A stretch of DNA of 62,290 nucleotides from Bryobacteraceae bacterium (GTDB taxonomy: Bacteria; Acidobacteriota; Terriglobia; Bryobacterales; Bryobacteraceae): contig JANWXD010000023.1 of the NCBI GenBank assembly GCA_025055455.1, forward strand, positions 1 through 62,290, read 5' to 3'. Under the pieces are notes generated by a model. That model was not told where the DNA came from, searched no databases, and saw nothing but the letters and a program-made list of their open reading frames with translations. Every line of letters starts with the position of its first letter. Position 1 is the stretch's first letter. Positions 30,958 through 36,235 of this stretch are shown in pieces. A program made the translations under genes and the position numbers.

Positions 30958-30989
30958 TTATTGAACGGGCTCTTTATTGAACGGGCTCT
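30958..30989. repeat. Perfect 16-bp tandem duplication
   Basis: TTATTGAACGGGCTCT occurs twice in a row (30958-30973 and 30974-30989). It fills the gap between the M16 peptidase stop (30989-30991) and the upstream possible start of the isomerase gene (ATG 30958-30956). Confidence 0.9.
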
Positions 30990-32464
30990 CAGGTCGAGGG
31001 ACGCCCTTCGGTGTCATAAACCTCGACCGGCCCGTACTTCTCCAGTACGCCCCGGATTTTGGCCCCGTCGCCCACCGCCACGATTTGCAGCGCCTCCGGC
31101 TGGATGTACTTGCGCGCCACCGCCTGCACGTCGGCGGCGGTCACCGCCATGATCTTCGCCGGATACGTGTCCCAGTAATCCTCGGGAAAACCGTACAGCT
31201 TGCGCGTAATGGCGTAGCTGAGCACTTCTTCGGGCCGCTCCAGGGAAAGGGCGAAGCTGGCCACGACCGCGCGTTTGGCTTCCTCGAGCTCGGCCTCCGG
31301 GACGAGCTCCTCGCGGATGCGGCGGATTTCGTTCAAAAACTCGGTCATGGCGCCTTCGGTCACCTCCGTGCGCATGTCCCCCCCGGCCCGCCACGGCCCG
31401 GGATACTTGGCCGCGCTGAAGAAGCTGTACACGCCGTACGTGTATCCTTTCTCCTCCCGCAGGTTGAGGAACAAGCGCGCCGCCGGTCCGCCGCCCACGA
31501 TCCGGTTCATCACCACCATCGGGATGTAATCCGGGCTCCGGCGGTCAATGGCGATGTTGCCCATCGCCACCGTCGTCTGGACCGAATTCGGCCGGTTGAC
31601 CAAATAAATCCTCCTTTCCGGCGCCGGCTTCGGATGGGCCGGCAGCGTTTCCCTCAGTTCGGTCCTCTTCCACCCCGCCAGCCACTGGTTGAGTTTGGGA
31701 ATCAACTCCTTGGCACGGACGTCGCCGGCAATGGCCAGGATGGCGTTTTGCGGCGCCCAGCGCTCCCGGTGCCAGCGCGCCAGATCCTCGGGGCGGATCC
31801 GGTCAAGAGACTCCAAGGTCGGTGCGATCACCGCCGCCGGGTGATCCCCATACACTGCCCGCGCAAACCGCTCCTGCGCCAAAAAGCTCGGCGAGGCGCG
31901 TTGCTGCCGCAGTTGCACTCTCCGCCGGTCTTTGAGATTCTTCAGTTCCTCGGCAGGAAAAGAGGGATTCAACAGGACATCGGTGAACAAACCGAACCAG
32001 GCCTCGAAATTGTCGCTCAGACCCGAGGCGGTCATGACCGCCTCGGGGGATCCGAAGCCGGCTGCCGCGTTCAGACCCGCCCCCAGGCGCTCGATCTCCT
32101 CGGCGATCTGCCGGCTGGAGCGTGTCTTGGTGCCCTCGCGCAGCATCTCCGCGGTAAGGCTCGCCAGCCCGGGGAGCTCTTTCGGATCGTATAGGCCGCC
32201 CGCTCCGCTGATCAGCAATTGCAGGCTGATCGTCGGCAGGCGGTGGTCCTCCATGATGAGCACCGTCAGCCCGTTGTCGAGCGTGGCCTCCACCGGACGC
32301 GGCAGTTTCACCCGGAGGATCTCTTTGGAGACCGGCGCCCGGTTCTTGCGTTCGATCTTGCTCACCGGTACGGCCTTGCTTTCCCCGGCAGGCGTGGGGA
32401 CCTGAGCAAGGCCGGACACCGCTGCCGTCACTACCCACAGCCGCCACATCATGTGCGATGTCAT
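30989..32464 (-). CDS. M16 family peptidase-like subunit lacking the zinc motif
   Basis: A 491-residue exported protein of the insulinase/pitrilysin family. In place of the active-site HxxEH it has LASLTAEMLREGT, so it should not bind zinc. The C-terminal half keeps the R/Y substrate-binding pattern (RLFLNLREEKGYTYGVYSFF, about residues 318-337). M16B enzymes work as pairs of an active and an inactive subunit, as in mitochondrial MPP. The active partner is the adjacent upstream gene, 14 nt away. Start ATG 32464 has GGAGG; a signal peptide covers about residues 1-20. Confidence 0.88.
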   Translation of the reverse strand: MTSHMMWRLWVVTAAVSGLAQVPTPAGESKAVPVSKIERKNRAPVSKEILRVKLPRPVEATLDNGLTVLIMEDHRLPTISLQLLISGAGGLYDPKELPGLASLTAEMLREGTKTRSSRQIAEEIERLGAGLNAAAGFGSPEAVMTASGLSDNFEAWFGLFTDVLLNPSFPAEELKNLKDRRRVQLRQQRASPSFLAQERFARAVYGDHPAAVIAPTLESLDRIRPEDLARWHRERWAPQNAILAIAGDVRAKELIPKLNQWLAGWKRTELRETLPAHPKPAPERRIYLVNRPNSVQTTVAMGNIAIDRRSPDYIPMVVMNRIVGGGPAARLFLNLREEKGYTYGVYSFFSAAKYPGPWRAGGDMRTEVTEGAMTEFLNEIRRIREELVPEAELEEAKRAVVASFALSLERPEEVLSYAITRKLYGFPEDYWDTYPAKIMAVTAADVQAVARKYIQPEALQIVAVGDGAKIRGVLEKYGPVEVYDTEGRPST

Positions 32465-32478
32465 GCGCGTCGCCTCCT

Positions 32479-33840
32479 TCAGCGCCCGTCCGATGCCGGC
32501 CGCGCCGCCGGCACCGTGGTCACCACGGTCCGGTTCGTTTCCCTCAAATACCTCGCAGCGACCCGCTGTAAATCGCTCTTGGTGATTTTCGCGACCTTCT
32601 CCTCGATCGTGTTGATCAAACCAGGATCGTTATAGTAGACCGCGTATTGCCCGAGCAGAATCGAACGAAACAGCGTGCTCCGCAACGCCTGGGCTCGCTG
32701 GCGGCGCAACTGCATGCGGACTTTTTCTAACTCCCAGTCGGCGACCGGCTCTTTCTTCACTCGTTCGATCTCCTCGTAGACGAGTTTCTCGATCTCGCCG
32801 AGATCCTTGCCGGGCCGTGCCATCACGGTCACCGACCACAGCGACGGCCCCCGGCGTTCCTGCGCGCCACCGAACACTCCCACCGCCACCTGCTGCTCTT
32901 TGACCAACTTCTGATACAGGCGCGAGGACTGCCCGCCCAGCAACACGTCGCCGAGCACGTCGAGCGCGTACCAATCCGGCGTGTTCCCGGGAGGGATCTT
33001 GTAGACGATGTCCAGCCGCGGCGTGCGCGCGAAAGCGTCTTCGAGCTGTTTGCGCCGCTCGGCTTTCTGTTCCGGCTCGGCCATGTCCGGCTCTTTCGGC
33101 GGCGGCTGTGACGGAATCCCTTCGAAGTATTTGCGGACTTTCGCCAAAGCCTCCTCCGTCTTGAAGTCCCCAACCAGCGTCAGCACGGCATTGTTTGGCG
33201 CATAGTAAGTCTTGAAAAACTCCGCCACGTCTTCGAGCGTGGCGGCGTTCAGATCCTCCATCGAGCCGATCGTGGAGTGCTTGTACGCGAAGTTGTCATA
33301 CGCCGTTTCCAAGATCGCCTCGAAGGTCCGCCCGTAGGGCTGGTTATCCACCCGCAGTCGGCGCTCTTCTTGCACCGCGTGGCGCTGATTGTCCAGATTG
33401 GCCTGGTTGATCACCAGCGACCGCATCCGGTCCGCTTCCAAGAACAGACCCAGGTCGAGCTGGTTGGCGGGCAGAGTCTGAAAGTAATTCGTGCGGTCGG
33501 CATTCGTCGTTCCGTTCATGTTGCCGCCGTTGTTCTCGATCAGAATGAAGTGCTCGCCTTTGCCCACGTTTTCCGAGCCCTGGAACATCATGTGCTCGAA
33601 CAGGTGCGCAAAGCCCGTGCGGCCAGGACGCTCGTCGCGCGAACCGACGTTGTAGGTCACGCAGATCGAGTAAGTGGGCGCCGCGTGGTCCTCGGCCAGG
33701 ATCACGCGCAGTCCGTTCTTGAGCTGGAACTGCTTGAACTCGACGCGGATCGGTTTGGGTTTGGCGCTCTGGGCGCGGCCGGCGGGAACAAGCCAAGCCG
33801 CACACCAAAGTCCGGCGAGGAGAAACGCTCTGCGGCGCAT
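32479..33840 (-). CDS. M16 family zinc metallopeptidase, active subunit
   Basis: A 453-residue exported peptidase with signal peptide (about 1-24). It has the inverted zinc motif in TGFAHLFEHMMFQGS (HxxEH, about residues 78-82) and the distal Glu in the region of LRVDNQPYGRTFE. It also has the C-terminal LGGQSSRLYQKLVKEQQVAVGVFGG. It should cleave peptides in the periplasm together with the inactive partner gene downstream. A GGAGGT Shine-Dalgarno precedes the ATG. Confidence 0.92.
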   Translation of the reverse strand: MRRRAFLLAGLWCAAWLVPAGRAQSAKPKPIRVEFKQFQLKNGLRVILAEDHAAPTYSICVTYNVGSRDERPGRTGFAHLFEHMMFQGSENVGKGEHFILIENNGGNMNGTTNADRTNYFQTLPANQLDLGLFLEADRMRSLVINQANLDNQRHAVQEERRLRVDNQPYGRTFEAILETAYDNFAYKHSTIGSMEDLNAATLEDVAEFFKTYYAPNNAVLTLVGDFKTEEALAKVRKYFEGIPSQPPPKEPDMAEPEQKAERRKQLEDAFARTPRLDIVYKIPPGNTPDWYALDVLGDVLLGGQSSRLYQKLVKEQQVAVGVFGGAQERRGPSLWSVTVMARPGKDLGEIEKLVYEEIERVKKEPVADWELEKVRMQLRRQRAQALRSTLFRSILLGQYAVYYNDPGLINTIEEKVAKITKSDLQRVAARYLRETNRTVVTTVPAARPASDGR

Positions 33841-33929: not shown

Positions 33930-34532
33930 CTATTCGTCGCCGCTCATGACGTATCCGCGGCGGGCAATCCGTTCGCCGGAAGCGCGATGACCTTCCGGAG
34001 ACATCTCTTTCACGCCCGCCGCGTCCACCCAGCGGTTGAAAAAGTTGAACAGCGCGCACACCGTGATGGCGTCGAAGATGGCCTCGTCGCTCCAGCCGGC
34101 GGCATGGAGGGCTTCGATGTCCTCCTGTCGGATCGATGGAGAGTCTGTGTTAACTTTCTCGACGAAGGCCAGCAGCGCCTTTTCGGCGTCGGAGATGGGG
34201 GCCGAATGGTAGTCTTCTAGCACGGCGCGCACCAGCGCCTCGTTTCCGAGCAGGGCCGCCGCACCGGCGGCGTGACTCTCGGTTCAAAACGGACAGTGGT
34301 TCCGGCGCGAGGTGAACGCCGCGATCAGCTCCCGCCAACCGGGGCTCAGCGGCGAGGGCCCGCGCATCACCGCTTGGGTGAGGCGTTCCAGGGGTTTGCC
34401 CACCTCCGGCTTGAAAGCGAAAAGATACAAGATGCCAGGCACCTCTACCCTGCTGGCCCGCAGCGTCTCGATCGCACGCCGGTACCCGCCTGCCGCCTTC
34501 TCCCGCGCCTCTCGCAGGTAGAGCTCTTTCAC
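33930..34532 (-). CDS. AhpD/carboxymuconolactone decarboxylase-like selenoprotein (in-frame TGA at 34284-34286)
   Basis: A 200-residue protein if TGA is read as selenocysteine. From GTG 34532 the first 82 codons end at NHCPF, then TGA, then TESHAAGAAALLGNEALVRAV in the same frame to a stop at 33930. This gives CPFU at residues 80-83 and His87, exactly the CxxCxxxH motif of AhpD-like peroxidases with Sec in place of the second Cys; the Glu of WRELIAAF precedes it as in the family. Twelve nt after the TGA is a 6-bp hairpin with loop GGTGC, suited to SelB. The GTG overlaps the gamma-glutamyltransferase stop (GTGA). Without selenocysteine it would be two half-genes. Confidence 0.85.
34255..34271 (-). 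promoter_or_regulatory. SECIS-like hairpin
   Basis: On the minus strand GCCGCC (34271-34266), loop GGTGC, GGCGGC (34260-34255). The stem starts 12 nt after the TGA and the loop 18 nt after it, in the range of bacterial SECIS elements, and the loop has the expected G and U. Confidence 0.65.
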
Positions 34533-36235
34533 CGGTTGGTCCCCGTCTCGAAATACGGATCCGGCTCCGGCACCGCGGCGCCGTCTTTGCGCGGGCACGA
34601 AGCCCCGTAGTTGACGCGCGTGGCCGAGTCGTGCATCACGGCCTGGCCGCCGCCGACCAAATCGTCGAAGTCTTTGCGCTCGTCGAGAATGTGGCCCCGC
34701 CGCTTGAGTTCCGCGCGCACCTCCGCCGGCACCCGGCCCTCGATGAGCAAATCGCAGCCTCCGAAATTCAGCTTGGTGAACCGCGGGGCTTCCAACGCCG
34801 CCTGCAAGTTCATTCCGTGGTCCACGATGTTGGAGACGAACTGCGCGTGGGCCTGGGCCTGGCTGAGGCCGCCCATGATCCCGAATCCGATATGCAGGTG
34901 ATCCTTTTCCATGAAGGCCGGTATGGTGGTGTGAAACGGGCGCTTGCGCGGCGCCAGGGCATTAGGATGTTTTTCGTCGAAGTGAAACAGGCCGGCTCGG
35001 TTGTGCAGGTGGAACCCCATGCCCTCGACCACGATGCCCGAACCGAAGGGCAGATAGATGCTCTGGATCAGCGAAACGATATTGCCCTCCCGGTCCACCA
35101 CTGACAAGTAGACCGTATCGCCGGAGGAAGCAAGAGGCTGGCCCGGCGAGACTTCACAACGGGCCCGTTCCGCATCGATCAGCGCGGCACGTCGGGCGGC
35201 ATAGTCCTTGCTCAGCAGGCCCGCTACCGGCACGGAAACGAATCGGGGGTCGGCGACGTAGCGCGCCAGGTCTTGGTAGGCCAGTTTCTGCGCCTCGATC
35301 TTGTAGTGGAAATCGTCCGCGCTGCCTGGCCTCAGCGCGCCGATGGGAAACCGCTCGAGGATATTCAGCATCTCTAGCGCGGCGATGCCTTGGCTGTTGG
35401 GCGGAATCTGGTAGATTCTCCAGCCGCGGTATTCCGTCCAGATGGGCGTCACCCATTCGGCCTGGAACTCGCTCAAGTCGGAAGCATCCATCGTGCCGCC
35501 AAGCCGGCGTGAGGTCCGCAGGATCGCCTCCGCGATCGGGCCTTTGTAAAAGGCCGCCGCGCCTTGCTCGGCCACGAGCTCGAGGGCCCGGGCCAGTTCC
35601 GCGTTCCGCCACACTTCACCCACGCGCGGGGCGCGTCCCTGGGGCAGGTACAGGCGCCGGGCGTGTTCGTCTCGCCGCAACTTGCTTTCCGAAGCCGCCC
35701 AGGCCGCCTGGATCAGTTCCGTGACCGGAAAGCCGTGCGTGGCGTAGTAGATGGCCGGCCGGAAGAGCTCCCGCCACGGGAGCCGCCCGAAGCGCTGGTG
35801 CAGCTTCGCCCATCCCTCGACGCACCCGGGCACCGTCACCGAATGGATGCCCTCCTGCGGCATCGCGGTGAATCCCTTGCTGCGGAGAAACTCCAGACTG
35901 AGCCGTTTGGGCGCCCAGCCGCTGGCGTTCAGCCCGGTCGGTTCCTTCGTCCGGGCGCTCCAGTGAATCGCGAACAGGTCGCCCCCCATGCCGTTCATCA
36001 TCGGCTCGACGACGTTGAGAACCGCATTGGCGGCAATCGCGGCGTCGACGGCGGAGCCCCCGCGGGCCAGCACCTGTGCGCCTGCCTGCGACGCCAGGGT
36101 CTGGCTCGTCGCCACGATGCCGCGCTCCGTGATGACCATGGAGCGGGCGTGCGTGCGATCCACGGAAAGCGCCCGAGCCGAGAACATCGTGACAAGATAA
36201 ATCATCCCAACGACGCCGGGACCTGCCCTCCGCAT
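34529..36235 (-). CDS. ggt: Gamma-glutamyltransferase
   Basis: A 568-residue Ntn hydrolase precursor that cleaves the gamma-glutamyl bond of glutathione and related compounds. A signal-like helix is at about residues 8-24. The N-terminal region has GGSAVDAAIAANAVLNVVEP and GMGGDLFAIHW; the self-processing threonine is in ASSGDTVYLSVVDREGNIVS (Thr at about 374), followed by the FGSGIVVEGMGFHLHN segment. The glycine-rich GIMGG near residue 465 is also conserved. Its stop overlaps the start of the selenoprotein gene by 4 nt. Transcribed from a TAGAAT box 10 nt before the ATG, divergent from secA. Confidence 0.93.
   Translation of the reverse strand: MRRAGPGVVGMIYLVTMFSARALSVDRTHARSMVITERGIVATSQTLASQAGAQVLARGGSAVDAAIAANAVLNVVEPMMNGMGGDLFAIHWSARTKEPTGLNASGWAPKRLSLEFLRSKGFTAMPQEGIHSVTVPGCVEGWAKLHQRFGRLPWRELFRPAIYYATHGFPVTELIQAAWAASESKLRRDEHARRLYLPQGRAPRVGEVWRNAELARALELVAEQGAAAFYKGPIAEAILRTSRRLGGTMDASDLSEFQAEWVTPIWTEYRGWRIYQIPPNSQGIAALEMLNILERFPIGALRPGSADDFHYKIEAQKLAYQDLARYVADPRFVSVPVAGLLSKDYAARRAALIDAERARCEVSPGQPLASSGDTVYLSVVDREGNIVSLIQSIYLPFGSGIVVEGMGFHLHNRAGLFHFDEKHPNALAPRKRPFHTTIPAFMEKDHLHIGFGIMGGLSQAQAHAQFVSNIVDHGMNLQAALEAPRFTKLNFGGCDLLIEGRVPAEVRAELKRRGHILDERKDFDDLVGGGQAVMHDSATRVNYGASCPRKDGAAVPEPDPYFETGTNR

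Follow-up and report, generated by a model that had tools for sequence, protein, structure and literature searches.

Can a TGA codon in the middle of a bacterial gene be an amino acid codon, and if so, what enzyme does the gene encode? The question is raised by a contig of 62,290 nucleotides from a member of the Bryobacteraceae (Acidobacteriota), here called the window, in which a frame related to the peroxidase-like protein AhpD is interrupted at its active site. A sequence-only reading had proposed an AhpD-like selenoprotein with a CxxU motif and a SECIS-like hairpin. The genes of the selenocysteine machinery, the homologous codons of relatives and the hairpins of those relatives all support that proposal, and the mid-gene stop is almost certainly read as selenocysteine.

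The gene and its enzyme family

Translated with TGA as selenocysteine, the minus-strand frame runs to 200 codons and a stop and contains a single TGA (Table 1). This confirms one frame split where a CxxC motif would have its second Cys, with Cys80, Sec83 and His87 where they had been placed; a plus-strand reading of the frame was dropped, as it encodes no such protein. Relatives back the GTG start: in many of them, M-(E/K)-P-M-(F/Y)-L is found at the corresponding position. As had been anticipated for ordinary gene calling, a mechanical listing under the standard code cuts the gene at the TGA, giving two separate open reading frames (34284-34598 and 33930-34232). Two adjoining genes for M16 (insulinase-type) peptidases lie directly downstream (30989-33840, minus strand). 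Promoter and terminator scans gave no signal clearly exceeding chance, and a DNA search of plasmids returned four records, none reaching 80% query coverage.

Table 1. Positions of the selenoprotein gene, its landmarks and its upstream neighbor in the window
Feature	Position	Strand	Remarks
AhpD-like (peroxidase-related, TIGR01926) selenoprotein gene	33930..34532	minus	GTG start, TAG stop, one in-frame TGA
GTG start codon	34532-34530	minus	
TAG stop codon	33932-33930	minus	
Sec83 (TGA codon, second position of CxxU)	34284..34286	minus	TGA/Cys column in 47/47 homologous places
Cys80 codon (first residue of CxxU)	34293..34295	minus	Cys in 79/81 homologous rows, Thr in 2
SECIS-like hairpin 3' of TGA, two possible registers	34255..34272	minus	Compensatory synonymous pairs in relatives, frozen third bases
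Gamma-glutamyltransferase gene, upstream	34529..36235	minus	PF01019, E 2e-149

Profile scores of the window protein were computed with Cys in place of Sec. It matches the Pfam family PF02627 (CMD) with an E value of 1.2e-9 and is a member of the NCBIfam peroxidase-related enzyme model TIGR01926 (113.7 bits against a cut-off of 81.8), while the AhpD core model TIGR00778 is barely exceeded (28.9 bits against 27.8). Scores for TIGR04030 and NF041238 fall far below the cut-offs of these models. The latter model describes an AhpD-related (seleno)protein (CFYUT) that has the AhpD-type core and CxxU in common with the window protein, but a score of 46.3 bits, where 175 is required, puts the window protein outside it. 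Peroxidase-related or AhpD-like proteins of solved structure (PDB 3c1l, 6k40, 2pfx, 2oyo and 2prr) match over the AhpD core with E values of 4e-18 to 8e-14, and in the three solved relatives that were aligned, the CxxCxxxH site is in register at the sequence level, with Cys where the window has Sec.

The active site, Cys80-Pro-Phe-Sec83-Thr-Glu-Ser-His87 (H-C-P-F-U-T-E-S-H), is of the AhpD type, with Glu68 lying 15 residues before Sec83, so that the Glu, Cys, Sec and His of that type are all present. A wider set of homologs, which includes a chosen part of the weaker matches, yielded 81 rows that fit the motif pattern (56 Sec and 25 Cys). Glu at -15 and His at +4 occur in all 81 and Cys at -3 in 79, where it should be noted that the motif used to pick the rows itself requires His and a C, T or K at -3. 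Both rows in which Thr replaces the first Cys (QTPFC; L031 and L078) are Cys forms from one genome, G038, which leaves them one Cys of the CxxC; their hairpin sequence is altered too.

In AhpD, the peroxidatic Cys is the second Cys of CxxC, and we take the catalytic roles of the active-site Glu, Cys, Cys/Sec and His from that enzyme. On this basis, the enzyme is probably a reductase of hydroperoxides, or of a related substrate, that works through an AhpD-type relay. Sec83 would be the attacking residue, activated with help from Glu68 and His87; Cys80 would resolve the selenenic acid formed on it, and the enzyme would then be regenerated by a thiol or dithiol donor. That the enzyme has peroxidase activity is presumed here from the family, as are its substrate and electron donor. 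A different possibility is that UGA is recoded in a thiol-disulfide enzyme, or another enzyme of the CMD fold, that has a specialized substrate and is not a hydroperoxide reductase. The similarity is at family level only, solved relatives are mostly named as putative or uncharacterized peroxidase-related proteins, and the debrominase Bmp8 is among them, albeit with a weaker match (E 6.8e-5). Nevertheless, the AhpD-type residues kept in nearly all 81 rows and the scores above cut-off for TIGR01926 and, barely, TIGR00778 argue for the AhpD-type reductase, and we regard the alternative as unlikely, if still a serious contender.

Selenoproteins of this kind have a considerable history. In the portions of the literature consulted, 27 AhpD-like CxxU selenoproteins were reported in 2005 from the Sargasso Sea metagenome (PMC1088965), two AhpD-like (COG2128) selenoproteins and two distant AhpD homologs appear in a 2006 survey (PMC1794560), 299 and 70 members of two AhpD-like types are given in the GOS paper (PMC2398784), and Table 1 of a 2026 review includes "AhpD-like protein, TIGR01926, CxxU" among the selenoprotein families already known (PMC13188914), the Sargasso Sea data being where this family was first seen. 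As far as excerpts of two of these sources describe that family (PMC1088965 and PMC13188914), the window gene is like it in its NCBIfam model, its CxxU and a post-UGA stem-loop with an apical G; it differs in being a new sequence, placed behind a gamma-glutamyltransferase gene, and no mechanistic difference is seen, the likeness being one of model and motif. A literature search joining "peroxidase-related enzyme" with "selenoprotein" returned no paper. The window gene is thus a well-supported new sequence in the known TIGR01926 CxxU family, and, because CxxU AhpD-like selenoproteins have been known since 2005, its occurrence is no surprise.

Decoding machinery and the TGA/Cys column

All four genes on which bacterial selenocysteine insertion had been expected to depend here, selA, selB, selC and selD, are present in the organism's own genome, a draft called 98.75% complete. 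Profile searches gave 513.7 bits for selA (cut-off 267.9), 346.7 for selB (cut-off 242.25) and 378 for selD (cut-off 125). The tRNA-Sec gene (selC) scored 75.5 bits against a cut-off of 47, and ARAGORN agrees, with anticodon TCA; three more weak matches to RF01852 reach the gathering score, at 47 to 49 bits. The selD gene (L023, contig C79) has an in-frame TGA close to its N terminus (AAG-U-ASK), so SelD, too, is probably a selenoprotein. In this genome, tRNA-Sec(UCA), brought by SelB, would decode UGA, and from the machinery together with the homologs we infer that Sec is inserted in vivo.

Homologs were sought in 101 genomes (the organism's own and those of 100 relatives), of which 65 gave a match. 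The places scoring at least 135 bits number 47, including the window's own, and form one clade with support of 99/97. Every one has either TGA (39) or Cys (8) at exactly the Sec83 codon, which bears out the expectation of Cys at the same codon in homologs. The 39 TGA places are spread over 38 genomes, again including the window's own, and the frame is open behind the TGA. In the close clade, selB exceeds its cut-off in 31 of the 38 genomes with the Sec form. The other seven are each in many contigs; SelB fragments are listed in four (G006, G012, G034 and G063), and nothing clearly SelB is found among the matches listed for G003, G018 and G039.

Could the TGA be a sequencing error, or a recent nonsense mutation of a Cys codon in what is now a pseudogene? 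One base separates TGA from TGC or TGT, and the sequence comes from a draft assembly in 145 contigs. The recurrence of the same TGA, followed by an open frame, in 39 of the 47 close homologous places, in 38 genomes, and a hairpin kept at synonymous sites (see below) make this explanation extremely improbable. Mean identity between the window and the 38 other Sec rows is 56% after the TGA compared with 45% before it. Over the 114 codons after the TGA, the window differs from L030 at 20, 19 and 61 first, second and third codon positions, respectively, and the downstream frame is therefore under protein-level selection. That the two open reading frames of the mechanical listing are two genes, an N-terminal fragment ending at the TGA and an independently started C-terminal one, is likewise extremely improbable, as the break would sit within the CxxC active site, the match to each of the eight Cys homologs of the clade is free of internal stops and the 12 codons 3' of the TGA align without gaps across the 39 Sec rows. 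We are highly confident in the joint explanation, that of an AhpD-like TIGR01926 enzyme whose second active-site Cys is Sec, decoded through SelB and tRNA-Sec and probably acting in AhpD-type reduction.

Cys forms are nested at several points within the Sec clade. All seven genomes that hold the eight Cys forms have a selB match over the cut-off, so the Cys form does not follow the loss of Sec decoding. The wider set came from a phmmer search with 90 hits under 89 names. Eight of these names were left out, namely two that have TGA at the site (L066 and L088), two that have Cys (L077 and a fragment in L071) and four fragments or chance hits. One of its 25 Cys rows is another CMD gene of the organism's own genome and was excluded from the tree. 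Clusters of at least three Cys-type AhpD-like paralogs occur at L068, L069, L070 and L071, in relatives that also have selB, and each of L069-L071 includes one Cys member of the window gene's clade. Proteins with several Sec residues were considered in family f3, where genes contain two or three TGAs, and rejected: in the nine genes examined (L059-L064, L066, L067 and L090), and likewise in L065 with its two TGAs, the additional TGAs are found at either end of the aligned protein or outside it, where natural stops or upstream sequence account for them. When a single protein served as the query against named genomes, two loci came up, one with TGA at the same place. This locus (L099, 3001-3585), from a Chloroflexi metagenome bin, is a 54% identical homolog with TGA at the same codon and a GGTC hairpin loop.

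The hairpin behind the TGA

The 6-bp GC hairpin with loop GGTGC, which had been placed 12 nt after the TGA, is present as described (GCCGCC-GGTGC-GGCGGC). By its own fold, it is unremarkable: the 91-nt stretch has a z-score of -0.63 against dinucleotide shuffles, and the window's fold is matched by 5.3% of synonymous shuffles. An Rfam search of the window at the gathering threshold found a tRNA alone, leaving the hairpin unmatched, and a permissive search of five loci gave one weak, unrelated match and again nothing for the hairpin. It is the comparative evidence that carries the case for a SECIS element, and that evidence places a hairpin immediately 3' of the TGA, its apical loop containing G. 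Compared across relatives, as had been suggested, the hairpin is conserved, with compensatory synonymous changes.

At the five four-fold degenerate codons of the hairpin, third-base entropy is 0.66 bits, compared with 1.49 at 43 others. In the register common to the relatives (A1 columns 15-21 with 24-30), 96.6% of cells are paired and 15 are double-changed, and neither value was reached by any of 500 shuffles; the number of further pair types was matched by 79 of the 500, and all of these shuffles ignore the relatedness of rows. When the common register is slid, at most 79.8% of cells pair. A single pair, that formed by the outer loop bases, accounts for 13 of the 15 double changes, and RNAalifold predicts the other six pairs, leaving a four-base loop. 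Folds of individual sequences show less. Sec rows have a mean z of -0.94 against synonymous shuffles (n = 56) and Cys rows of 0.08 (n = 25), the rows not being independent, and 5% or fewer of the shuffles were as good in 3 of 56 Sec rows and 1 of 25 Cys rows.

The loop sequence across the 39 Sec rows is GGTC (21), AGTT (11), CGGT (4) or AGGT (3). Where these bases encode Ala-Val (32 rows), the loop is GGTC or AGTT, and the mixed forms GGTT and AGTC are absent; for comparison, 50 of 126 Ala-Val codon pairs are mixed in 154 long mechanical open reading frames of the loci and the window. With AGGT scored as A-U, parsimony on the protein tree places 10-11 changes between G-C and A-U loop labels, of which at least seven are required by well-supported branches. 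This co-switching of loop bases with no mixed state is strong evidence, from alignment, for a predicted SECIS role of the hairpin in the relatives. More distant Sec homologs have, as read by eye, rather different hairpins at similar distances.

The window has C and U as its outer loop bases; it is one of the four CGGT rows, and the covarying pair is absent. The window may either retain the six-pair stem of the common register, with loop CGGU (CGCCGC-CGGU-GCGGCG), or use a shifted stem with loop GGUGC (GCCGCC-GGUGC-GGCGGC). The shifted register is not the general one, because just 71.5% of cells overall pair in it. In L034, the common register is mostly lost and compensating changes are seen in the shifted register. 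SelB would recognize a short GC-rich hairpin 12 nt downstream of the UGA, with G and U in the loop, and its recognition of the window hairpin is presumed on these grounds. In structures of SECIS RNA bound to SelB, the loop bases G and U are turned out, which would fit a loop pair. The synonymous switching between G-C and A-U on either side of the two bases G and U, mixed forms being absent, suggests that SelB needs the first and fourth loop bases paired and the middle two turned out, and that the shifted register, as in the window and L034, can substitute; we lean only slightly toward this view.

Neighborhood and meaning for the family

The stop of the gamma-glutamyltransferase gene and the start of the selenoprotein gene do overlap by GTGA, as first read, and the two genes are likely co-transcribed. 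The link then drawn from a selenium peroxidase to glutathione metabolism is not supported. Three models for glutathione synthesis (PF02955, PF04107 and PF04262) found no match in the organism's own genome, whereas as controls the same three gave matches in 9, 5 and 2 of 14 genomes. A gamma-glutamyltransferase neighbor occurs in only 2 of 70 loci, in flanks mostly of 1 to 1.5 kb, some shortened by contig ends: the window's own and L034, where the two genes adjoin without overlap.

The sole element of some novelty is the repeated, synonymous and compensatory switching of the SECIS loop pair, for which we make no claim that it is unpublished. Since a standard-code listing splits the gene at its TGA, a redox enzyme of the TIGR01926 CxxU kind can vanish from annotation across the lineage. 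Within the clade, genomes that have retained selB include both Sec and Cys forms, and the clade's 39 Sec genes constitute a natural experiment in bacterial SECIS loop variation, offering synonymous variants for direct testing in reporters.
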